DNA from: an uncultured Mucispirillum sp. | Lineage (GTDB): Bacteria > Chrysiogenota > Deferribacteres > Deferribacterales > Mucispirillaceae | DNA: 64,000 bases | Assembly: GCA_944326705.1 (NCBI GenBank) | Contig: CALVEY010000010.1 | Coordinates: forward strand, 1 to 64,000 | Direction of reading: 5' to 3' | Shown here: positions 44,212 to 64,000 of the stretch, piece by piece | Numbering within the stretch: position 1 is the first letter of the stretch | Layout of the letters: the number at the start of each line of letters is the position of its first letter | Notes under the pieces: model-generated | The model's input: the letters and a program-made list of their open reading frames with translations, nothing else | The model's database searches: none | What the model was told of the DNA's origin: nothing | Translations under genes and position numbers: made by a program

Positions 44212-45869
44212 ATGCTAACCAAAATTAAACATAACATTATAAATATTGATAAGCATATTTTTATTAGGAATTTTTTATTTGTACTAGCTGTTACTGTTAT
44301 TTACAGTTTATCCGTAAATATTCCTCTAATTAAAATGAATTATCCAGAAAAATATTTTATACTTGCTTTATTTATGTCAATTACTCGTGATTTTATTATT
44401 TGGTTTATTGTATTTTTAAACAGATGGGTTTTTGCTGTATTTACTATTTTTACTTTTGTTGCTGGCTTTGGTCTTAAATATGTAAATGAATATTTGAATA
44501 TGGGGCTAAATATTGGTACATTTGAAGTAATATTTTCTACAAATCTAGTAGAAGCCAAAGGAGTAATGAATGATACATTAATAAATTATTTCACAGTTGG
44601 ATTATTAATTGCCGTTATAATTGTATCATTAAGATTTATATTAATAACTGATAAACATAAAGTTAATTGGGGGGGGGATTTCTACTTTTACTTACAGCAT
44701 TAATCTTCCTGTTTTTAGGAAAACTACCTGAAAATTATATGAAAAAAGTCAAATACGGCTCATCTGAAAAAGATATTGTAAACACAGGCAGAGGTTTTGA
44801 TATCATGCCTGAAAAAATCTATGAAAATTTTTATCATCTTTTCAAAAATAAAATTGAAATGAAATATATGATATACAAAAGAAATAGTCTTGAGATAAAT
44901 GATGTAGTTTATAATGAGAAAGAAGGCCAAATAATTATTTTTGTGCTAACAGATGCACTTAGACCTGACCATATGTCTTTATATGGATATGAAAGAGAAA
45001 CAACACCATATATGAAACAGGCTGGTTTTATTCCTTTTAATGATATGTATGCATGTGAAACATCTACAACCCGCTCTGTTCCATGTCTTTTAACAAGTAT
45101 GAAAAGGGGAGAAAATTTCCTTACATATTTAGAAAAACCATCAATATTTACAATCTTTAAAAAGGCTGGATTTTATACAGCATTTATTTCTGCACAAAGT
45201 TCTATTTCTACATCAGATACAGGGCAGACTATTATTGCAGATGATGCTGATTATAGTTTTTTTAATATCAATTTTGATGTGCAGTATGATACTGAACTAT
45301 TGCCATATTTTGATAATATTTTAAATAACAGCAATCCAAATAAATTAATAGCTATTCAGCTAAATGGAAGTCATTGGGATTATAATACAAGGTTTAAATT
45401 AGAAGACGCAGAATGGAAACCATTATGTGAAAATTTTGCACTTGACTGTCCTGTTGAAAACTTAGTTAATTCTTACGATAATACAATACTTACTACAGAT
45501 ACACTTGTAAAAAATATTGTTGAAAGAGTAAAGGATAAAAATGCAGTAATTTATTTTTCATCTGACCATGGACAGTTCCTTGGAGAAGGCGGACTTCGTA
45601 TGCATGCACAAGGAAGATTAAATTTTAAAGAAACAGGTGTTGTTCCTTTTGCCGTATGGGTTTCAGATAAGGCAAAAAAACATATAAATATTGATACTAT
45701 ACTTCATAATAAAGATAAAATTACAACACATGATATAATATTTCATTCTATTTCATCATGTGCAGGTATAAAATCAAGTGTTATAGATAAAAATTTAAGC
45801 ATATGTTCTGAAAGTTTAATAGAAGCACCTAATGAATTTAAAAATTATATTAGTAAAAAAGCAGAATAA
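44212..45869 (+). CDS. Phosphoethanolamine transferase (EptA-like), split by a G9 tract
   Basis: Two frames make one gene. The first (165 codons to a stop at 44703) carries the start of a five-helix membrane domain. The second, from the G tract to 45869, carries the last helix and a sulfatase-fold periplasmic domain: DALRPDHMSLYGYE with metal Asp, catalytic Thr in CETSTTRSVPC, and SSDHGQFLGEGG. Ten (or seven) Gs at 44669-44677 would join them as WGGGF. With nine the enzyme is off. It would decorate lipid A or another surface glycan with phosphoethanolamine. Start is ATG 44212 or GTG 44206. It follows lolA by 11-17 bases. Confidence 0.85.
44669..44677 (+). repeat. G9 tract in the phosphoethanolamine transferase gene
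   Basis: Nine Gs within the codons for the last membrane helix. The nine-base state leaves upstream and downstream parts in different frames; ten Gs restore them. A contingency-type tract. Confidence 0.9.
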
Positions 45870-45931: not shown

Positions 45932-46765
45932 CTAATAATCTAGAATTAAAATTCCTGTATTATCTTGCTTTAATATATACAGCCTGATAAATATAGAACG
46001 CAGAATCATTTGAAGAGAACCACCACTATACCAGTAGTTTTTATGCATATTAGGAAATATACTGTTAACAAAACTAAAATATTTTACATTACAGCTTATA
46101 AAGTCTACTGGATATTTTTCTACAATATCAATTATATTTTTTATTATTAAATTATTTTTTTCTTTATCTTCGTAAAATACTGGTTCAAAATAATATGATG
46201 TAATAAAACCTTTTTTTGAAAAAATTTGCAGTAATGCAGGATAAGGGCTTTCTATAATTAAAGATGATTTATTTATATTATACTTACTTGTATGCTTTAT
46301 TAATGTGTCTAAAATACCTAAGTAATTTTCACTATTCATATTTTTAAAATCTAACCAAAGATACTTTAAATCAGATTTCCCCCCCCCAGTAATAAGTCCA
46401 TTTAAATTTTTAAATATTTCATCTAAATATAAATAGTTATTTTTATTAATATCTATATTAATATTATCGTGTGAAATTATAAATTTATTATCATAAAATA
46501 CAACATCAGTTTCAAAACATTTGTATTTATTAAAATATTTTTTTAATTTTTCTATACTATAAACTGCATGTATTGAAATAAAAGGCTTCGAAAAATTATT
46601 TTTTATATGAGATGAACTTTCTATACTACTGGATTTATTATATAATGATACATTAGAATATGAATTTAGTGATAAATAACCAATTATATTCTCTATAACA
46701 CCCCATAATGTTATGCTAATCAGCAAAAAAACAACAATATTTTTTATATACTTTTCTATATCCAT
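45932..46765 (-). CDS. GDPD-like membrane-anchored protein with a G9 tract
   Basis: A 277-residue protein with an N-terminal helix (about 10-28). From residue 60: ISIHAVYS, FETDVVFYDNKFIISHD, then YLYLDEIF and YLWLDFKN, which follow the order of glycerophosphodiester phosphodiesterases (His, Glu-x-Asp, His-Asp, then Glu/Asp-x-Lys). Exact substrate unknown. The tract of nine Gs at 46379-46387 encodes three Gly in TGGGKSD and the frame is open at present, so this gene is on. Its end is 62 bases from that of the transferase, tail to tail. LarC lies 3 bases upstream. Confidence 0.7.
   Translation of the reverse strand: MDIEKYIKNIVVFLLISITLWGVIENIIGYLSLNSYSNVSLYNKSSSIESSSHIKNNFSKPFISIHAVYSIEKLKKYFNKYKCFETDVVFYDNKFIISHDNINIDINKNNYLYLDEIFKNLNGLITGGGKSDLKYLWLDFKNMNSENYLGILDTLIKHTSKYNINKSSLIIESPYPALLQIFSKKGFITSYYFEPVFYEDKEKNNLIIKNIIDIVEKYPVDFISCNVKYFSFVNSIFPNMHKNYWYSGGSLQMILRSIFIRLYILKQDNTGILILDY
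46379..46387 (-). repeat. G9 tract in the GDPD-like gene
   Basis: Nine Cs on the plus strand, read as nine Gs in the gene. The tract is in frame with both halves of the product. Loss or gain of one base would truncate the protein near residue 130. Confidence 0.9.
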
Positions 46766-50296: not shown

Positions 50297-50800
50297 TTAC
50301 TTCATAGTATGCAAAGCACCAGCTTTTGTCATTGGTCTTGTTTTATGACATACTATACAGTTTTTAGCTGGTGTATTGCTCCAGTTGCCTACAGGGATTA
50401 CACAGCTTGTGCCGCAGTGTGAGCCTGGGTCTGTTTGAACGCCTGATGCAAAGTTAGCTCTTGCATGGCTCATTGGATATGCTGTTTCATGACATGAATC
50501 ACAGAAATCCTGTTTGTGACATGTCTGACATGTTGTCCTGTTCCACCTTGCTTCTAAGCCGTGTGTTTTATTTACAAATGTTACTGTATGGCTTCTTGGT
50601 GCTGTATCTTCGTGACATGCTATACATTCACTTCTTTCTTCGTGGCACATTAAGCATTCACTCATATTAGTTTTTGCTGCCTGACCGTGCTGTTTTTCCC
50701 AGGTGCTATTATGAGTAGACGGCTTTGTGCTGTCTACTGCTAGTGTTACACTTGCTATAAGTAAAGAGAATAAGCCGATTATTAATAATTTCATTTTCAT
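50297..50800 (-). CDS. Periplasmic pentaheme cytochrome c, locus 1
   Basis: A 167-residue protein with a Sec signal (about residues 1-21, ending TLA) and five CxxCH heme motifs: CLMCH, CIACH, CQTCH, CDSCH, CIVCH. An extra pair of Cys lies in HCGTSC. Size and heme count are like the periplasmic electron carrier NrfB. The amino-acid sequence is identical to the copy at 59729. It probably passes electrons between the inner membrane and the molybdoenzyme or the outer membrane. Last gene of the locus, 12 bases after the barrel gene. Confidence 0.9.
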   Translation of the reverse strand: MKMKLLIIGLFSLLIASVTLAVDSTKPSTHNSTWEKQHGQAAKTNMSECLMCHEERSECIACHEDTAPRSHTVTFVNKTHGLEARWNRTTCQTCHKQDFCDSCHETAYPMSHARANFASGVQTDPGSHCGTSCVIPVGNWSNTPAKNCIVCHKTRPMTKAGALHTMK

Positions 50801-50812
50801 TACTTCTTCCCC

Positions 50813-52354
50813 CTACCAGATAAAGTTTGCCCAGATACTTACTGTATGAATATCTGGCTGTAAGTCTGCACTTTTAAAAAGGTCTGCATATTCATAAGTA
50901 TAATCAAGCTGTAATACACACCAGTCTACTGGACGATACATTGCGCCAATGTATGCCATTGTTGTGTTTTCGTTTCTTTCGCTTAAATTCAGCACTTCTT
51001 CTCCATACTGTGGGTATGATTTTATTGGGCTGTTTCTATACTGGTAATTCTGAACATTCACACCTACCCAGCCTTCTATTCTGTCTGTAAATACCTGAGT
51101 CATTCTAAAACCACCCATTACTTTAGAGTTGCTGTCCTGTCTTTTGTATTCTGCCACATCATACCAGTCTACTATTAAGCTTAAGTAGTTGTTTTTATGG
51201 ATTAAGCCTACTAAGTCTACATTACCAAATACTCTTTGGTAGTCTCTGTCTCCGTAAGCTTCGCTGAAGTTAAATCTTGTTTCCCAGCCTACTCCTACTA
51301 TTACATAATCAGTGATGCCTTGTGTCAGCATTACGCCACCCATTACATATTCACTTGAGCCGCCTAACATATCTTCATACATGGATACATATGGGTTGAT
51401 ATCACCTGTATTTTTATCATACTGGCCTGCAATGTATGCTGATACACCTGTGCGGCTTGCATCTATATTGGCATCTAAACCTGCTTCATAAAGCATGGCT
51501 TTACCTACTATTGCGCCTTCAAGATATATATTTGATGATATTATATCTGGAAAGTTTAAGTTCTGGTCTATTCTGCCTTTGGCAACATGTGTATTAAAAT
51601 CGCCGCCATCTTCATGCATAAAGTAGTTGTATTCTGCTCTGATTTTTGTACCGCTTACTGCTATTGGCACTTCTAATGCTGCACCTACTACAGATGTTTT
51701 TAAGTTGCTGTAATAGCTCACTGGAAGACCGCCGTATACATCAAGTTTAAAGTAGTCGCATGTATCAAAATGAAGGCTGCCCCCGTCTATTTTATACATA
51801 TCTAAGTTGTTTAAGTAGATTCTGCCTGCTGCTATATCTGTGTATGGCACTACTTTTTTAAACTCTACATTGGCTTGATATATTCTAAAGTTGCCGTCAT
51901 AGTGTCCGTTTAAGCGGGTATATTCATCATATTTTCTTGATGTATATAAACCGTCATAAAACTGATTATAACTGCTTCCCTGCTGGCTTGCTGATATGCC
52001 GTCCATTGTGCTGCCGCCAATACTTGGAAGGCTGTCATAAGCGCCTCGCATATTTAAGTTTACATTCACTGTCCCCTGGCCAAGTTTTGCATCACTTAAT
52101 CTAAGCCTAGCATATTGATATATTGACCAGTCTTCATCTTCGCCAAATTTCATTGTGGCTCTTGTTGTTAACCCTATTTTTAATATCCCTGAATCGCCAA
52201 AATCTAAGCCGTTTAAACTTGCTTTTATTCCGTTAGCGTTTACATGTTTACTCCATGAGTCTGGTGTAACATATGCATCGCCAACATAGGCAAAAGCTGG
52301 GAGCGCTAAAAACAGAGAAAAAACTGTTATAAGATTAATTAAACTTTTTCTCAT
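50813..52354 (-). CDS. Outer-membrane beta-barrel protein, locus 1
   Basis: A 513-residue protein with a Sec signal (MRKSLINLITVFSLFLALPAFA) and a beta-rich mature part that ends in a terminal Trp (WANFIW). No CxxC near the N-terminus, unlike MtrB-type barrels. Length suggests about 20-24 strands. After the signal it is identical or nearly so to the 60245 product. Probably a porin for a substrate or product, or a partner of the cytochrome. It begins 9 bases after the chaperone gene. Confidence 0.8.
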   Translation of the reverse strand: MRKSLINLITVFSLFLALPAFAYVGDAYVTPDSWSKHVNANGIKASLNGLDFGDSGILKIGLTTRATMKFGEDEDWSIYQYARLRLSDAKLGQGTVNVNLNMRGAYDSLPSIGGSTMDGISASQQGSSYNQFYDGLYTSRKYDEYTRLNGHYDGNFRIYQANVEFKKVVPYTDIAAGRIYLNNLDMYKIDGGSLHFDTCDYFKLDVYGGLPVSYYSNLKTSVVGAALEVPIAVSGTKIRAEYNYFMHEDGGDFNTHVAKGRIDQNLNFPDIISSNIYLEGAIVGKAMLYEAGLDANIDASRTGVSAYIAGQYDKNTGDINPYVSMYEDMLGGSSEYVMGGVMLTQGITDYVIVGVGWETRFNFSEAYGDRDYQRVFGNVDLVGLIHKNNYLSLIVDWYDVAEYKRQDSNSKVMGGFRMTQVFTDRIEGWVGVNVQNYQYRNSPIKSYPQYGEEVLNLSERNENTTMAYIGAMYRPVDWCVLQLDYTYEYADLFKSADLQPDIHTVSIWANFIW

Positions 52355-52363
52355 GTAATTATC

Positions 52364-53077
52364 CTAATTGTTTGTTTCCACCAGCATATTTTTAAGGTCA
52401 AGCAAAAATTTATGATTTTCACTAATATAACCTTCTGTAAAATCTGCCAGTTTATCATAAAAGACTTTCTTTATCGGAGAATTACGAATATTAGCAGTAA
52501 ATATTTTTAACCATTTTGAAAAATGTTCATCATGGATATAAAGCTGTTTATCTACTATATTTTTAAGTGACTGCAAATCTTTCTGCTCAATAAGGTCACC
52601 TGCCATATTATTATAAAGTGACATAATATATGTTTCAAAGCCGATATGGTCTTCAGGTTCATTATAAAGTTTTCTAGGGTTTATTTTTTCACTGCTGAAA
52701 AGTTTAAGCATATCATCCCTTGATTCCTGCATTTCAAGATTATTTTCAGATGTATATACTGATTCTGTCATAGGTATTGATGCAGAGCCTAAGCAGAATA
52801 ATGCTGTATATTCTCTTAATATTTCTGTATCATAACCTGTTAGTTTATTATTTTCTAAACAGTTTCTTTCATCTATAACTTTAACAATGCCTTTTATTCC
52901 TTTATTTAAAAGTTCATTATCATCACTTTCAAGCATGATGAAATATTCTTTTAAATCATTCAGCATTTGAAAATATGAGTCACTTACAGGCTCAAAATAT
53001 GAGCGTGAAAGAAATTTATAAACAACTTCACTGCCTTTAAATATTTCATATAAATTATTTAAATAATTTTCCGACAT
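52364..53077 (-). CDS. TorD/DmsD-like chaperone, locus 1
   Basis: A 237-residue all-helical protein with the family motif region: ALFCLGSASIPMTESVY, MQESRDDML, and EPEDHIGFETYIMSLY (the ExxDHL-type motif). Such proteins bind the Tat signal and help cofactor insertion in molybdoenzymes. It shares these motifs with the 61806 product but is clearly diverged. A hairpin separates it from the Fe-S gene. Confidence 0.85.
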   Translation of the reverse strand: MSENYLNNLYEIFKGSEVVYKFLSRSYFEPVSDSYFQMLNDLKEYFIMLESDDNELLNKGIKGIVKVIDERNCLENNKLTGYDTEILREYTALFCLGSASIPMTESVYTSENNLEMQESRDDMLKLFSSEKINPRKLYNEPEDHIGFETYIMSLYNNMAGDLIEQKDLQSLKNIVDKQLYIHDEHFSKWLKIFTANIRNSPIKKVFYDKLADFTEGYISENHKFLLDLKNMLVETNN

Positions 53078-53126: not shown

Positions 53127-53777
53127 TTAGTTTGTTTTAGTAATAATGCGTAAGGACTGTCTTGGAATAATATAGAAAGATGGTCCTGTATCTTCATTAT
53201 CATTTTGGTAAGCATAAGGGAATTGTGTTTTGTTTACCTGCACTGCAGTAGGATAATCCCTTTTCAGCTTATCAATTGGACCCCAGTGAATTGCTCTGCC
53301 TACACAGCTTGCAACACATACTGGTTCTTGACCGTCATTTACTCTATCTACACACATATTACATTTTTGTGCAGGGTGAGCAATCTGCCAGCCGCCTTGT
53401 TTTTCTGGTTCTTGGTGGTCATCAGCTATGCCGATAGCGCCGAATGGGCATGCAGTAACGCATGCTAATACACCAAGGCATTTTTCTCTATCAATAGATA
53501 CTATACCAGTATTTGGGTCTTTTGATATTGCATTGCTTGAGCATGCTTTTATACATGCTGGTCTGTCGCAGTGGTTGCAGCTCATAACTAAATTTTCAAC
53601 AGTTTCTAATGCTGATGTTTTGCTTACTACATCATAACCTTCATTAGTTTTTTCATGACCTTTATGTGTTCTCCAGCGAACTAACCCTGGTTTTACCTGA
53701 TTCCAGTCTTTACATGATACAGTGCAGGCGTTGCAGCCCATACATCTTGATTGGTCAAATACAAATCCGTATTGCAT
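53127..53777 (-). CDS. DmsB-like Fe-S electron-transfer subunit, locus 1
   Basis: A 216-residue ferredoxin with four cluster motifs: CMGCNACTVSC, CNHCDRPACIKAC, CLGVLACVTACP, and CNMCVDR with CVASC. The third motif lacks its second Cys (Val), so that site likely holds a 3Fe-4S cluster, as in NarH-type subunits. Electrons pass from here to the catalytic subunit. No signal peptide, so export would be by the Tat partner. Starts 10 bases after the catalytic gene. Confidence 0.9.
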   Translation of the reverse strand: MQYGFVFDQSRCMGCNACTVSCKDWNQVKPGLVRWRTHKGHEKTNEGYDVVSKTSALETVENLVMSCNHCDRPACIKACSSNAISKDPNTGIVSIDREKCLGVLACVTACPFGAIGIADDHQEPEKQGGWQIAHPAQKCNMCVDRVNDGQEPVCVASCVGRAIHWGPIDKLKRDYPTAVQVNKTQFPYAYQNDNEDTGPSFYIIPRQSLRIITKTN

Positions 53778-53787
53778 AATTATCCTC

Positions 53788-56700
53788 CTAAGCTTTCTCT
53801 ACAAATACTACAATTGACATTTGAGCATTACCATGGTCACAGCGTGTTGGTGTAGATGCACAAAGTGTATTTGAACAGCCGCCATCATCTATGCCATTTG
53901 CATCTGGGTCATACCAGCCGCCCTGTGGAAGTAATGTTACACCTTTACTTATTCTATTAGATAATTTTGCTACAGCGTGAACTGCACCGATAGGGTTCCA
54001 CACTTTTACAAGGTCACCATCATGAATATCTTTTCCTAATGCATCTGCTGGGTTCATCCATATTGCTTCATATCCGCAGCCTGCCTGCCCTACAGGAGTA
54101 AGCCTTTTTAATGTAAGAGCAGTATTGTATGGTGGATTAACATCTGGATATTCTGGAAGAACATCTGCAAATATATCTGTATCTGTAGCAGGTTGTCCGC
54201 CTATTGCAAATTTACCAAGTTCTCTTACAAGTGGACTGTCATTAAATGTAGAGTGAGAACGATATCTGATATGTGTACCAAGATTAAATAATGGTTTGTT
54301 ATTGCTGTCTGCAAATAAATCCTTACCATAAGCTTGTTTAAAGTAGTCTCTGTAATCAAAGAATACTGGTATATTATAAACAATTGGGTCGCCTTGTTCA
54401 TCAGTATTTTTGTTACCTCTTTCTTCTGCTGGAAGATAGCCATGGAATTTTTCATTTCTGTGAGTATATTCCCAAACCATAACATCAGATAAAACATGGA
54501 AACGGTATGACATTTTAGGGTCATTAGTATCAACAATATAATGTTTATAGTCGTTACTTGTGCCTGTTCTGCATAATTCACCATTAAATGTAGTAATCAC
54601 ACCAGTTGTTCCACCTGCATGCTGAATAAATGGAGTAGTCATATCTGTGTTTTTATAGTTATTAAATGCAGTTAATATAGAATTTTCTGATAAAGATGCT
54701 GCATCATTCATAGAAACTGGTTTACCAAGAATATAACCATCTTTTTGATAGTTTTCAAAAGTGCCCCAGCGAGTTTTTGCATCAGCATTATTATTAAATG
54801 CTTGTTCAATTAATGAGTTTGGAGTATCATTTCTTGAAGCAAATTCGCTGTTTAAGCCTGCATAATAACCGCCGTCTATTTCAACTAAATATTTTGCTAA
54901 TAATTTATTCATTTCAAAAGTTGATTTAGATTCACCAGGGCCGTCAATTACTTTTGGCATATAGATTTGTTTAGAAGCACCAGCACCACCGATAATATCA
55001 GTCATTTCCCAGTTAGCTGTACCAGGGAGTGCATAGTCAGCCCAGCGCATAGTTGGTGAAAAGTTTGTATCAAGAGCTATATAGCAAAAGCCGTCTGCAT
55101 TTGATGGGTCTTCTGGATAGAATGGAAGACATTCAAGCATTTCCGCAGTATCATTTGAATTCATATGCTGGTTGATTACTGCGTTACCTGCAGCAGTATA
55201 TACAAACCTGATACCAGAATATAATGGTTTATCGCCATTCATTTCTACTACATAGTAGCCATCTGCACCTACTTCATAACGTTCTGCAGAAGTATGGCCG
55301 CCATTAATATAATCTAATATAGAGCTGTTAGCAAATGTGCTGCTTGATTTATGTTTTACAAATGATTTAATATTTGCATCCCCTGCATAAGCATAACCAG
55401 ATTTAAATTCATTCATATCCATATCTGGCACATATTTACCAGTATATCCGTTTGCTTTTAATTCATCTGCAAATGCAAATTTTACACCAGCATGCCACAT
55501 AGTGCATGATGGAAGTTTTGGAACAGTATTTGAATAGTTTGATTTATCACTATTTGCTGTTTTAACTGAAAGGTTAGGAATATCTGTGCCGTATTCAGCA
55601 TTATATGCTGCTGTTTGGTAAAAACCTGCTCCATCTACACCCCAGCCTTTAGAAATAATAGAGAGGTTTTGAAGTGCAAATAAGTAGTTTACACCTTCTG
55701 CATTTCTTTGCCAGCCGTTACTGCAGTGGTGGAGAACACCTTGACCAGCTTTTACTTTATCGCATATATCTTTTGCCATTTCTCTGATAGTAGCAGCAGG
55801 AACACCGCATATACCTTCTGCCCATTCTGGAGTTTTTGCCTCTCTTAATGTTTGTTTATAGTAGTAAGAAGCACCCTCACCTACAGTGCTGTCCTGACCA
55901 AGCATACATTTACCGCCTCTTGCAGTTTGGCTTGATTTTGCAAATTCTGCAGAGTTATAGTTTACTTTACCATTGATTGCTGTGCCATAAACTGCTTTAG
56001 CTTTAGATAAACGGTCATCCTGTCCCATAATATAGTCAGCATAAGAATAGCCTGGTTTTACTGCATTAACTTTTGTATATCCAGATTGTTCTTTAAGGCT
56101 GATATTACCTGTTGCTTTATCTATCCAATATTCTGGAGAAGCAAAGAAACCATAAACCATAGTATCAAGATAATCTACATCTAAATATGGGTCTGCTTTT
56201 ATAGAACCATCTGTATTAAATGTATTATCTATCATGTCATATATAATTGCTGAAATAAGAGCAACATCTGTTAATGGATTAAGCTGAACCCAGTCAGTTG
56301 CAAGAGTAATACCAGTATCTTCTAATGTTGGGCTCATATGCCATACTCTGCCGCCTTTATTTCTAATAGTCTGCGCACTAAGTATTGCAGAATAAGCATA
56401 AGGGTTAGAAGATGAAAGAAGATGCGAACCCCATAAAAATAAGCTGCCTGTATTTCTTTGCATTAATTGAGTTGTGTTTTTATTACCTTTTGCACCAGTA
56501 TAAGTTGTGCCAAAATATGAGCTTGAATGGGCACTGTAGTTATAACCTTGGTGCAGATAACCACCACTTAAAGGACCAACAGCTGCAGCAAATACAGATG
56601 ATGCACCATTACCACCACCGCGTTGGAATGGTCCCTGCTGACCACTTGACATGTGGTTATATATTGCTTCTGGGCCATATTTTTGTAAAATTGCATTATA

Positions 56701-57206
56701 ACGCTGAGCAATTTCTTTCATAGCCTGTTCCCATGTAATGCGAACAAAACCTGTTAAGTCACCACGTTTTTTAGTTTGTTTTAATGGATATTTCATCCTG
56801 CTTGGAGAATAAAGACGGCCAACATAACTTCTACACCTAGAGCATGCACGGCTTTGAGGGTTACTTACTTCATTTTCAAATGTTTTATCATAAGCACGTT
56901 CGTCAGTAAGTATACGAACTATTTTACCATTTTTTTTAACTGCACGAGTTACACAACGACCACCACAGTTATGACCAGCAGTTCCTGCCCATACTTCAGC
57001 AACACCGCTGTTTATATCGTTTACGATATTTTCTTGTTCACCAGAAGAGGTACCGACCCCCCCCCGTAGATAATTTCTGAACCGCTATCTTTTGAACAGC
57101 CATACATAGCAGCCATTGCACCAAGAGCTGCTGTGCCTTTTAAAAAGGAACGTCTTGAAACTGAGCTTTCTTCTAATGATTTTAAAACATTAGTTTCTTT
57201 TCCCAT
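53788..57206 (-). CDS. DMSO-reductase-family molybdoenzyme, locus 1, frameshifted at a G9 tract
   Basis: One gene in two frames. Start MGKETNVLKSL at 57206 (GGAGG upstream), Tat signal SRRSFLKGTAALGAM, then YGGG at the tract and a stop at 57021. The rest, read in the next frame from GTSSGEQ, carries the 4Fe-4S motif HNCGGRC, then RACSRCRSY with YSPSRMKYPLK, and a full molybdopterin domain to 53788. Ten (or seven) Gs give a 1139-residue enzyme. The RxC-RxR and KYP context is DmsA-like. The substrate is unknown. Followed by Fe-S, chaperone, barrel and cytochrome genes. Could be a sequencing error, but two other genes have the same kind of tract. Confidence 0.85.
57057..57065 (-). repeat. G9 tract in the molybdoenzyme gene
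   Basis: Nine Gs on the coding strand directly after the Tat signal. With nine the downstream frame is lost; ten would read YGGGVGTSS and continue. Confidence 0.9.
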
Positions 57207-57291
57207 ATTTTTCGCCTCCAATAATAATATATTTTTATAACTATAAAATTTTTTTTATTTAGTCAATATCTAAAAACACATAATTTATACA

Positions 57292-59728: not shown

Positions 59729-60232
59729 TTACTTCATAGTATGCAGTGCACCAGCTTTTGTCATTGGTCTTGTTTTATGACATACTATACAGTTTTTTGC
59801 TGGTGTATTGCTCCAGTTGCCTACAGGGATTACACAGCTTGTGCCGCAGTGTGAGCCTGGGTCTGTTTGCACTCCTGATGCAAAGTTTGCTCTTGCGTGG
59901 CTCATTGGGTATGCTGTTTCATGACATGAATCACAGAAATCCTGTTTGTGACATGTCTGACATGTTGTCCTGTTCCACCTTGCTTCTAAGCCATGTGTTT
60001 TATTTACAAATGTTACTGTATGGCTTCTTGGCGCTGTATCTTCATGACAGGCTATACATTCACTTCTTTCTTCATGGCACATTAAGCATTCACTCATATT
60101 AGTTTTTGCTGCCTGACCATGCTGTTTTTCCCATGTGCTGTTGTGAGTGGACGGCTTTGTGCTGTCTACTGCTAGTGTTACACTAGCTATAAGTAAAGAG
60201 AATAAGCCGATTATTAATAATTTCATTTTCAT
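59729..60232 (-). CDS. Periplasmic pentaheme cytochrome c, locus 2
   Basis: A 167-residue protein identical in amino-acid sequence to the product at 50297. Same signal peptide and five CxxCH motifs. The DNA differs at scattered positions, seen for example as GCAGTGCACC against GCAAAGCACC near the 3' end; all are silent. This indicates strong selection on the protein. It is 12 bases after the barrel gene and ends the second locus. Confidence 0.9.
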   Translation of the reverse strand: MKMKLLIIGLFSLLIASVTLAVDSTKPSTHNSTWEKQHGQAAKTNMSECLMCHEERSECIACHEDTAPRSHTVTFVNKTHGLEARWNRTTCQTCHKQDFCDSCHETAYPMSHARANFASGVQTDPGSHCGTSCVIPVGNWSNTPAKNCIVCHKTRPMTKAGALHTMK

Positions 60233-60244
60233 AACTTCTTCCCC

Positions 60245-61783
60245 CTACCAGATAAAGTTTGCCCAGATACTTACTGTATGAATATCTGGCTGTAAGTCTG
60301 CACTTTTAAAAAGGTCTGCATATTCATAAGTATAATCAAGCTGTAATACACACCAGTCTACTGGACGATACATTGCGCCAATGTATGCCATTGTTGTGTT
60401 TTCGTTTCTTTCGCTTAAATTCAGCACTTCTTCTCCATACTGTGGGTATGATTTTATTGGGCTGTTTCTATACTGGTAATTCTGAACATTCACACCTACC
60501 CAGCCTTCTATTCTGTCTGTAAATACCTGAGTCATTCTAAAACCACCCATTACTTTAGAGTTGCTGTCCTGTCTTTTGTATTCTGCCACATCATACCAGT
60601 CTACTATTAAGCTTAAGTAGTTGTTTTTATGGATTAAGCCTACTAAGTCTACATTACCAAATACTCTTTGGTAGTCTCTGTCTCCGTAAGCTTCGCTGAA
60701 GTTAAATCTTGTTTCCCAGCCTACTCCTACTATTACATAATCAGTGATGCCTTGTGTCAGCATTACGCCACCCATTACATATTCACTTGAGCCGCCTAAC
60801 ATATCTTCATACATGGATACATATGGGTTGATATCACCTGTATTTTTATCATACTGGCCTGCAATGTATGCTGATACACCTGTGCGGCTTGCATCTATAT
60901 TGGCATCTAAACCTGCTTCATAAAGCATGGCTTTACCTACTATTGCGCCTTCAAGATATATATTTGATGATATTATATCTGGAAAGTTTAAGTTCTGGTC
61001 TATTCTGCCTTTGGCAACATGTGTATTAAAATCGCCGCCATCTTCATGCATAAAGTAGTTGTATTCTGCTCTGATTTTTGTACCGCTTACTGCTATTGGC
61101 ACTTCTAATGCTGCACCTACTACAGATGTTTTTAAGTTGCTGTAATAGCTCACTGGAAGACCGCCGTATACATCAAGTTTAAAGTAGTCGCATGTATCAA
61201 AATGAAGGCTGCCCCCGTCTATTTTATACATATCTAAGTTGTTTAAGTAGATTCTGCCTGCTGCTATATCTGTGTATGGCACTACTTTTTTAAACTCTAC
61301 ATTGGCTTGATATATTCTAAAGTTGCCGTCATAGTGTCCGTTTAAGCGGGTATATTCATCATATTTTCTTGATGTATATAAACCGTCATAAAACTGATTA
61401 TAACTGCTTCCCTGCTGGCTTGCTGATATGCCGTCCATTGTGCTGCCGCCAATACTTGGAAGGCTGTCATAAGCGCCTCGCATATTTAAGTTTACATTCA
61501 CTGTCCCCTGGCCAAGTTTTGCATCACTTAATCTAAGCCTTGCATACTGATAGATTGACCAGTCTTCATCTTCGCCAAATTTCATTGTGGCTCTTGTTGT
61601 TAACCCTATTTTTAATATCCCTGAATCACCAAAATCTAAGCCGTTTAAACTCGCTTTGATACCATTAGCATTTACATGCTTACTCCAACTGTCTGGTGTA
61701 ACATATGCATCACCAACATAAGCAAAAGCTGGGACTGCTAAAGCTAACAAACATGTTAATGTATATAACATCAGCCTTTTCAT
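60245..61783 (-). CDS. Outer-membrane beta-barrel protein, locus 2
   Basis: A 512-residue barrel with signal MKRLMLYTLTCLLALAVPAFA, different from the locus 1 signal, followed by a mature part that appears identical to that of locus 1. At the DNA level most of the two genes match without gaps (offset 9432); differences gather near the 5' end. Ends in Trp. Role as in locus 1. It starts 22 bases after the chaperone gene. Confidence 0.82.
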   Translation of the reverse strand: MKRLMLYTLTCLLALAVPAFAYVGDAYVTPDSWSKHVNANGIKASLNGLDFGDSGILKIGLTTRATMKFGEDEDWSIYQYARLRLSDAKLGQGTVNVNLNMRGAYDSLPSIGGSTMDGISASQQGSSYNQFYDGLYTSRKYDEYTRLNGHYDGNFRIYQANVEFKKVVPYTDIAAGRIYLNNLDMYKIDGGSLHFDTCDYFKLDVYGGLPVSYYSNLKTSVVGAALEVPIAVSGTKIRAEYNYFMHEDGGDFNTHVAKGRIDQNLNFPDIISSNIYLEGAIVGKAMLYEAGLDANIDASRTGVSAYIAGQYDKNTGDINPYVSMYEDMLGGSSEYVMGGVMLTQGITDYVIVGVGWETRFNFSEAYGDRDYQRVFGNVDLVGLIHKNNYLSLIVDWYDVAEYKRQDSNSKVMGGFRMTQVFTDRIEGWVGVNVQNYQYRNSPIKSYPQYGEEVLNLSERNENTTMAYIGAMYRPVDWCVLQLDYTYEYADLFKSADLQPDIHTVSIWANFIW

Positions 61784-61805: not shown

Positions 61806-62486
61806 TTATAAAGTTTCTAAAAAAGCACTATCTTCTTCAATAAAGCCTAAAAGCAGGCAGGATAGTGGATAGTAAAGCCTGTCACCCTCTTTATACTTTT
61901 TAACGCTTGATAAAAAATAACCAAGCCAGTTTAAAAGATGGTCTTTTATAAAACTTTTTTGCAGGTTTATTAAACTTTCAGCCTGTGTATTATCGCCTTT
62001 TTCTATATTTTGATATGTTCCTTTTGAAAGGTATGACATAAACATAAGCTCATAAGATAAATGGTCCTGTGGCTCATTAGCAGTATGTTTCATATCAAAA
62101 TGGCACATTTTATATAAATTGCGGACTTCAAGTTCTGATTCCTGCATTGTTAAGTGCAGTGGAGAAACATATACAGATTCTGATATTGCTGCAGCATTAC
62201 CAAGGCAAAAAAGCCTGGAATATTCTCTGCTGTAACCTTCTAATAAGTTTTTCCTTGCTGTATCATCGCTGTTTTTATATTCGTTTACAACTTCTGATAA
62301 GCATGATACACCATATTTTATGTGCTGATTATCAGTATTTTCTGCCATTTCTTCATACATTGGCATTAAATCTATCAGCATTTGAATTTGTTTTGTTTCT
62401 ATAAGAGAAAGAAATAAGTCAGACATTGCAGCATAGGTTACTTCTCTCCCCTGCATTATACTTATTATTTCATCATTTAACTGCAT
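61806..62486 (-). CDS. TorD/DmsD-like chaperone, locus 2
   Basis: A 226-residue helical protein with RLFCLGNAAAISESVY, MQESELEVRNL and EPQDHLSYELMFMSYL, the same motif order as locus 1. Similarity to the 52364 product is moderate, so each chaperone is probably tuned to its own enzyme, while barrel and cytochrome are shared in sequence. Confidence 0.85.
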   Translation of the reverse strand: MQLNDEIISIMQGREVTYAAMSDLFLSLIETKQIQMLIDLMPMYEEMAENTDNQHIKYGVSCLSEVVNEYKNSDDTARKNLLEGYSREYSRLFCLGNAAAISESVYVSPLHLTMQESELEVRNLYKMCHFDMKHTANEPQDHLSYELMFMSYLSKGTYQNIEKGDNTQAESLINLQKSFIKDHLLNWLGYFLSSVKKYKEGDRLYYPLSCLLLGFIEEDSAFLETL

Positions 62487-62547: not shown

Positions 62548-63177
62548 TTATATACGAGCTTTTGCTTTAAATATTACAGATGGATGTGTTTCTGATGGGT
62601 CTGCGTAGATTTTAGCACCATTTACATTGATTTCTACATAATCTACAGCATCAGGATATGTTGATTTTAACATATCTATTGGACCCCAGTCTAATGCTCT
62701 TTGTGGGCATGTTGCAACACAAGTAGGTTTTTCGCCTTTTTTGATTAAAGGTAAGCACATATCACATTTATTAGCTGGATGGTCTACCTGCCAATAAATA
62801 CCTTTTTGTGGTTCTTGTGTATAATCAGGATTATAGTTTGCACCAGTATCTGCTCTATCAATTGCTTTATATGGGCAAGCTGTAATACAAGAGCCAGCAC
62901 CTTGACATTTATTTCTGTCAACTACTACTGCGCCAAATACATCATCTTTGTATATTGCATTAAATGTGCATGCTGGTATGCAGGCAGGCTCTGCACAGTG
63001 GTTGCAGCTTAATGTTGTATTAATAACATTAGAATTAGGGAAAGTACCCTGTTCTTCTGCATAAAGTTTTCTTAAAGCTAATGGACCTGGTAAAATATCA
63101 TTTCTATCTTTACAAGCAACTACACAAGCATGGCAGCCAATGCAGCGAGTTTGGTCTATATAAAATCCGTATTGCAT
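62548..63177 (-). CDS. DmsB-like Fe-S electron-transfer subunit, locus 2
   Basis: A 209-residue ferredoxin with CIGCHACVVAC, CNHCAEPACIPAC, CQGAGSCITACP and CDMCLPL with CVATC. As in locus 1, the third motif lacks its second Cys (Ala here), consistent with a 3Fe-4S site. It lies 11 bases after the catalytic gene. Confidence 0.9.
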   Translation of the reverse strand: MQYGFYIDQTRCIGCHACVVACKDRNDILPGPLALRKLYAEEQGTFPNSNVINTTLSCNHCAEPACIPACTFNAIYKDDVFGAVVVDRNKCQGAGSCITACPYKAIDRADTGANYNPDYTQEPQKGIYWQVDHPANKCDMCLPLIKKGEKPTCVATCPQRALDWGPIDMLKSTYPDAVDYVEINVNGAKIYADPSETHPSVIFKAKARI

Positions 63178-63188
63178 ATTCTCATCTC

Positions 63189-64000
63189 CTATATAACTTT
63201 GATACCAACTTTAGTATCGTTTGATAATGTCATACCTTGGCATATTCTTGAAGGTCTTATGCTCATAAGAGTATTTGAACAGCCGCCTGTATCTATTTTG
63301 TGAGTAATATTTGTAACTGGTGTAGTAAATGTTTCATCAATTACAGAAGCCCATGCACCTTGACCAATCATAATTTCGTTATCATGGATAAGTTTAGAAA
63401 TTTGTGCATAAGCATAGATTGCACCACGGTCGTTATAAATAACTACTCTTGCACCTTTTTCTGGAATGCCTAAAGCAGAAGCAGTATTAGGGCTTACAAA
63501 TACTGGTTCGTAAACATTTTCATCGCATATAGCAGCATCTGCGCCATATACTTTATTTTGACCTCTGTCTAAACTGTAAAATGCTGGGTTACCATTGATG
63601 TCTTTTTTGTAAAGCTCATTTAAGTATGCATTTGAGTTTAATGTAGAGTGAGAACGATACTGCATGTGCCAGTTATGCAGACGATAAGTATAACCTTTTG
63701 CTTCAGTACCTAATGGGTCTGGGTGAGCATATCCTTCTTCTTTAGAAGCATGAACACCTTCAACAAGAGGTATATACATAGGAACTGGGTAAACATACAT
63801 ACCGTTAGTATGTGTAAAACCTTTTGTTTTAATAGAGCCATTTACAAGTTGAACTGTAGTATCATCATTATTAAAGCCTCTTGCTTCATAATATTCACAC
63901 ATACCTTGTGAATAAGCTTCTATTTTACCAGTAGGAGTATTTACTGGATATTGGAGTTTCCCACTTGAATTTGTTATTTGAGTTCCTGGTGCTTCTCTAA
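63189..64000 (-). CDS. DMSO-reductase-family molybdoenzyme, locus 2, C-terminal part
   Basis: An open frame from the window edge to 63189 (about 270 residues seen). It contains VNTPTGKIEAYSQ, YRSHSTLNSNAYLNE, ALGIPEKGARVVIYNDRGAIYAYAQ and GGCSNTL, the C-terminal molybdopterin dinucleotide-binding region. The order and GGCSNTL end match the locus 1 enzyme. The 5' part lies beyond the window, so the state of any Tat signal or tract is unknown. Confidence 0.88.
   Translation of the reverse strand, partial: REAPGTQITNSSGKLQYPVNTPTGKIEAYSQGMCEYYEARGFNNDDTTVQLVNGSIKTKGFTHTNGMYVYPVPMYIPLVEGVHASKEEGYAHPDPLGTEAKGYTYRLHNWHMQYRSHSTLNSNAYLNELYKKDINGNPAFYSLDRGQNKVYGADAAICDENVYEPVFVSPNTASALGIPEKGARVVIYNDRGAIYAYAQISKLIHDNEIMIGQGAWASVIDETFTTPVTNITHKIDTGGCSNTLMSIRPSRICQGMTLSNDTKVGIKVI

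Follow-up and report, generated by a model that had tools for sequence, protein, structure and literature searches.

Probable slipped-strand phase variation in a family of outer-membrane-linked respiratory reductases of Mucispirillum

Why should a respiratory gene of an uncultured species of Mucispirillum, a genus that lives in the animal gut, carry its export signal and its catalytic domain in different reading frames, parted by a run of nine G residues? The gene lies on the minus strand at 53788-57206 of the DNA stretch analyzed here (64,000 nucleotides, hereafter the window), which belongs to contig C10 of a 2.39-Mb, 79-contig assembly with a GC content of 32% (G000); its close relatives were found in records named Mucispirillum, Candidatus Mucispirillum faecigallinarum and uncultured Deferribacteraceae or Deferribacterales. 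A ribosome-binding site that can be read directly from the sequence (GGAGG, 57215-57219) precedes the ATG start codon at 57206-57204, which opens a leader (57066-57206) containing the twin-arginine motif SRRSFLKG, a lipobox-like MYGC and the linker SKDSGSEIIY. The G9 tract follows at 57057-57065 and, as assembled, is out of frame: the leader-frame product is MGKETNVLKSLEESSVSRRSFLKGTAALGAMAAMYGCSKDSGSEIIYGGGSVPLLVNKKIS*, terminating at 57023-57021, that is, an open reading frame of 61 codons (57021-57206) consisting of the leader and junk. The catalytic body (53788-57056) is open in the other frame, where no stop codon occurs from 57084 to 53788 (1098 codons, 1088 of them after the tract, HNCGGRC included); without the leader, the next in-frame ATG of the body is at 56796, beyond the HNCGGRC motif. 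One extra G in the tract joins the two frames. A previous sequence-only reading of this DNA had given the same position and frame relationship for the tract, about 1100 open codons with HNCGGRC in the next frame and a single added G as the joining change, all of which held when we re-read the minus strand and translated both frames.

The catalytic body matches PF00384 (66 bits) and PF01568 (57 bits), both above the Pfam cut-offs, and by sequence it matches the DMSO/selenate reductase family, DMSO/TMAO reductases being its closest solved structures in sequence comparison. Its best NCBIfam model, TIGR02166 (DmsA/YnfE), scores 302 bits against a cut-off of 777.7, so that by this model the protein is a relative of DmsA/YnfE and not a member of the subfamily. 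The Tat signal resides in the leader and is connected to the catalytic subunit only at in-frame tract lengths. The remaining genes of the predicted operon, all on the minus strand, encode a DmsB-like four-cluster iron-sulfur subunit (53127-53777; best NCBIfam model DMSO_dmsB, 140.6 bits, under the cut-off), a TorD/DmsD-type maturation chaperone (52364-53077; PF02613, with 48 bits for the TorD model), a putative outer-membrane beta-barrel of 513 amino acids with a signal peptide (50813-52354), recognized from its predicted structure and Foldseek, and an exported c-type cytochrome of 167 amino acids with five CxxCH motifs, assigned by motif reading (50297-50800). The barrel has no match in Pfam or NCBIfam; its AlphaFold model comprises about 22 strands at low confidence (pLDDT 57), and the Foldseek matches of this low-confidence model are outer-membrane porins and ushers. 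Assignment of the barrel to MtrB/DmsF gained no support, there being no such profile match in Pfam or NCBIfam and no MtrB among the best Foldseek matches of the low-confidence model.

A second operon of the same type lies on the same strand at higher coordinates. The window ends inside its tract-bearing catalytic gene, of which it holds the 3' part (63189-64000), and the G10 tract of that gene lies beyond the window, at C10:66252-66261, and is out of frame. The other members are a DmsB-like subunit (62548-63177; NCBIfam), a TorD-like chaperone (61806-62486; Pfam and NCBIfam), a second copy of the barrel (60245-61783; 97.3% DNA identity to the first) and a second five-heme cytochrome (59729-60232; protein identical to the first). 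The window thus contains two near-identical pairs of barrel and five-heme cytochrome genes, at 50297-52354 and 59729-61783. A single tRNA is the only known RNA element within the window, for which no plasmid relatives were found.

G/C runs of 9-10 are about a hundredfold more frequent in this genome than expected by chance, and runs of 6-8 are nearly absent. In the window, which was not selected for tracts, there are 359 runs of length 3, 89 of length 4, 14 of length 5, none of 6-8 and three of 9. A 331-kb set composed of the window and stretches picked for holding tracts contains 68 runs of length 5, two of 6, none of 7, one of 8, 32 of 9 and two of 10, against 0.007 runs of at least 9 predicted by geometric extrapolation. 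Genome-wide, pattern searches combined with the retrieved stretches give about 35 runs of 9-10, compared to about 0.3 (of at least 9) expected at this GC content. Against switching, the length spread is narrow: almost every tract is called as exactly 9. Counted as overlapping 9-mer hits, such runs number 16 to 55 per genome in Mucispirillum members that are at least 90% complete and 0 to 2 in most other families of the order, with intermediate values in two genomes (13 in G014 and 8 in G016). GGG accounts for 8% of the Gly codons in the window, so three consecutive GGG codons would rarely arise through codon choice alone. Loss of mismatch repair was considered as the cause of the tracts and discarded, given that this genome and nearly all of its relatives have mutS (mutS1) and mutL; with both genes present, switching may proceed at a lower rate than in epsilonproteobacteria, where the MutS/MutL mismatch repair system is missing.

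The reductases share this genome with many other tract-bearing genes. Coding tracts are found in genes for MBOAT acyltransferases, a GT9 glycosyltransferase, RgpF, a WxcM-like protein, a sulfatase-family transferase, a radical SAM protein and a type I restriction specificity subunit (HsdS). At least nine genes have C8-C9 or G9 between TTGACA-like and TATAAT-like boxes with spacers of 14-19, several of these promoter-spacer tracts being located upstream of predicted lipoprotein or outer-membrane protein (OMP) barrel genes. Judging from the predicted functions, these other tract-bearing genes are the usual repertoire of a phase-variable genome. Individual cases include seven loci (L018, L023, L024, L025, L028, L029 and L031) with promoter-spacer C8-C9 or G9 at lipoprotein or OMP genes, where the spacer is usually 15; a G9 on the plus strand at 44669-44677 that, as assembled, leaves the 481-nt upstream frame of a sulfatase-family (PF00884) transferase-like gene out of register with its 400-aa downstream frame; a G9 on the minus strand at 46379-46387 within a 278-codon open frame, in frame as assembled and without a Pfam match; and an in-frame G9 in the HsdS gene (L015:5433-5441, contig C8:53432), a candidate phase-variable methylation switch.

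The sequence-only reading had treated the window gene as a single case; the gene does have the tract, and it turns out to belong to a family that makes up 7 of the 13 PF00384 genes (molybdopterin oxidoreductases) of this genome, each with a tract within the first 200 bp, where 0.05 would be expected by chance (the paralogs are not independent). The seven are C10:57057 (G9), C10:66252 (G10), C12:34653 (G10), C16:27093 (G9), C22:27967 (G9), C79:4748 (G9) and the C33 copy (G8); those on C16 and C22 are in frame and the other five are out. A comparison of nine related genomes provided 39 tract-bearing copies from seven genomes, 13 in frame and 26 out of frame, whereas all 20 tract-less copies are in frame (Fisher p 2e-7). 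As assembled, each out-of-frame copy is one base off an in-frame length, the shift needed being +1 in most copies and -1 in five. Most of these genomes are metagenome assemblies, in which the lengths of G runs are consensus calls, and some contigs of G002 start inside the leader, which is then partial, with the frame still readable. In two ortholog groups, the state changes between species through a single base: the C79 group is G9 OFF in four genomes and G10 ON in G009, and the C33 group is G8 OFF in G000 and G9 ON in G006 and G008. The window gene and both its orthologs are all out of frame with G9; among these three species, dN/dS is 0.13-0.16 at dS of 0.31-0.59, which indicates that the body is in use often enough for selection to keep it. 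One out-of-frame copy of G009 (L080) has the altered twin-arginine motif SRHSFLKG and is perhaps a decaying member. The coexistence of in-frame and out-of-frame states in paralogs and orthologs from independent assemblies lends strong support to the slipped-strand control originally proposed for the window gene, and we consider it very probable that a whole family of outer-membrane-linked, probably surface-anchored respiratory reductases is phase-variable in this manner. Switching in living populations is probable as judged from genome sequences.

The distribution of the tract among operons and the relationships between paralogs bear on whether such switching is adaptive. In G000, a barrel gene is located downstream of all seven tract-bearing molybdoenzymes (on C79, the contig ends inside it) and of none of the six tract-less ones, and the five-heme cytochrome gene accompanies at least six of the seven and, again, none of the six. 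Within one genome, the paralog leaders are 93-99% identical at the DNA level over 141 nt, with unrelated sequences downstream: homology ends at the tract, immediately beyond which identity is down to about 0.2-0.5. The mean identity of leaders is 0.96 between paralogs of one genome compared to 0.93 between genomes, and for barrel genes the identities are 97-99% within a genome and 82-93% between genomes. This concerted evolution of the barrel genes appears to be a sign of gene conversion. Genus g2 (G010) has barrel-linked relatives without tracts, so that the pairing of enzyme and barrel may predate the switch.

These data allow the reading in which switching is real and non-adaptive, gene conversion spreading leader and tract together and the instability of the tract being tolerated as a side effect. 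The homogenization of leader and barrel/cytochrome genes between paralogs would be accounted for, as would the in-frame share of one third, which is the expectation for a random (neutral) frame. However, tracts are restricted to barrel-linked reductases and to other, mostly surface, functions, and although the tract is 3' of the Tat/lipobox leader in 38 of the 39 copies, the distant C12 copy has it before the twin-arginine motif, a different position that suggests independent gain. Of the rival explanations, this one fares best, and we still consider it unlikely. The C12 gene itself (L017:5654-5663, contig C12:34653, G10) is a distant molybdoenzyme in which a GTG directly behind the tract offers a possible alternative start codon.

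Another explanation would be that ribosomes undergo programmed frameshifting at the G run, or that transcription slips there, so that some full-length enzyme is supplied at any tract length. Long G runs can slip in transcription or translation, and the selection that persists on out-of-frame bodies would be compatible with such a process. However, a single programmed frameshift fits poorly with a set of copies in which some require +1 and others -1, a third of the copies need no shift, and the same kind of tract occurs in promoter spacers, where frame is irrelevant. This explanation seems very improbable as a replacement for slipped-strand switching, on top of which some leakiness of expression is conceivable.

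The main alternative named in the sequence-only reading was a sequencing or assembly error, in which case the real tract would be in frame and the gene permanently on. G homopolymers are indeed error-prone, most of the relatives are metagenome assemblies, and the leader repeats break contigs, those of G002 that begin inside the leader being an example. Nevertheless, the tract recurs in both frame states in independent assemblies, 39 copies being split 1:2 between in-frame and out-of-frame, including the single-contig genome G006 (one in, three out); tract-less paralogs are never out of frame; and the promoter tracts of the same genome cannot be frame errors. An error here is accordingly even harder to credit than frameshifting. 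A variant in which leaders are mis-joined in short-read assemblies was rejected because all leaders have one common frame, so that a mis-joined leader leaves the frame unchanged. That the window gene is a decaying pseudogene, as its out-of-frame state here and in both orthologs might indicate, is scarcely believable given its 1098 open codons, the intact operon partners and the dN/dS of 0.13-0.16 over three species at dS of 0.3-0.6.

Under slipped-strand switching, the G tract would gain or lose a G during replication. In-frame lengths (in most genes 9 or 10, as set by the flanks) would give a full Tat-exported, probably lipid-anchored DmsA-like reductase, and other lengths no more than a short peptide of some 60 residues. 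In the OFF state, a body made from the ATG at 56796 would lack both the Tat signal and HNCGGRC, so that no exported enzyme would be expected and the DmsB partner would remain unused. The Gly-Cys after the Tat motif is conserved in the reductase family, which suggests lipidation. The G run encodes Gly-Gly-Gly in a spacer that leads from the putatively lipidated Cys to the first ordered element; in the predicted structure of an in-frame family member, which has low overall confidence, residues 1-67, including the Gly linker, are unstructured and order begins at residue 69, which fits a tolerant linker. The tract-less relative L082 keeps the Gly-Gly-Gly as GGTGGTGGA, which indicates that the G run itself is not needed by the protein.

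The restriction of the tract to members of barrel operons suggests that these enzymes are surface-linked, with the caveat that the barrel model is of low confidence, that the lipobox (MYGC) is atypical and that homology to MtrB/DmsF was not found. Operons that share the proposed switch also encode a TorD-like chaperone, a barrel of the outer membrane and, in most cases, a five-heme cytochrome, which suggests that electrons cross the outer membrane to reach an enzyme at the cell surface. The benefit could lie in expressing alternative electron-acceptor pathways at random and, possibly, in escaping antibodies or phages. Bet-hedged anaerobic respiration is plausible. For a stronger version, we put the chances at about even: up to seven surface reductases per genome, each with its own G tract, would form a combinatorial random set, generating within a clone many cell types that differ in their acceptors, while the leader-plus-tract and barrel/cytochrome modules spread by gene conversion. 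If catalytic subunits of respiration are indeed switched as a family, individual cells of a host-associated bacterium with a link to gut inflammation would differ at random in their energy metabolism; a single genome sequence could not tell what such a strain respires, and annotation may label such genes as frameshifted pseudogenes. Among the questions that become testable are whether inflammation selects phase states and why outer-membrane-linked reductases switch and other molybdoenzymes do not.

Slipped-strand switching is textbook knowledge for coats, adhesins and restriction systems, its main known settings being surface coats and evasion of immunity. Its promoter-spacer variety with poly-C/G runs is known from Neisseria opc/porA. 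The Neisseria type is resembled by the C8-C9 and G9 tracts between -35-like and -10-like boxes of at least nine genes here, but these spacer tracts belong to promoters of lipoprotein and OMP genes at other sites of the genome, whereas the reductases use coding-frame tracts. The mechanism as such is already known (PMC8437040, PMC3234257, PMC2831843); for a phase-variable molybdoenzyme family, we found no earlier report, no paper in the literature searched (in which few subscription journals were included) pairing phase variation with either this enzyme family or Mucispirillum. The initial view that such control of a catalytic subunit would be unusual is tempered by the barrel association, which brings these enzymes closer to the known switching of surface genes.

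Campylobacter jejuni and Helicobacter similarly possess dozens of homopolymer tracts of about 9, many of them G/C, mostly coding and located in polysaccharide and surface genes (PMC8437040; PMC3234257), with 29 poly-G/C tracts in the AT-rich genome of C. jejuni NCTC11168 (PMC8437040). Mucispirillum differs in belonging to another phylum and in having mutS and mutL, and its largest recognizable class of tract-bearing genes consists of catalytic subunits of respiratory molybdoenzymes, none of which appears in Table 4 for H. bizzozeronii (PMC3234257). L082 has a naturally unslippable version of the linker, comparable to the phase-locked edits that experimenters introduced in C. jejuni (PMC8437040).

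In Shewanella, DmsEFAB is an extracellular DMSO/iodate reductase in which DmsEF hand electrons to surface DmsAB (PMC9732548). The likeness lies in a DmsAB-type enzyme encoded together with an outer-membrane barrel and a multiheme cytochrome; the operons described here differ in having a five-heme, 167-aa cytochrome and no decaheme protein of the DmsE/MtrA type, a 513-aa barrel without detectable homology to MtrB/DmsF, and a G tract along with many paralogs per genome. Nearer at hand, a DMSO-reductase-like system of M. schaedleri is up-regulated in inflammation, among the few induced in inflamed mice (PMC5285517, Loy et al. 2017). The main text of that genome paper mentions no phase variation, homopolymers or frameshifts (PMC5285517); the system belongs to the same genus and the same enzyme class as the tract-bearing reductases.
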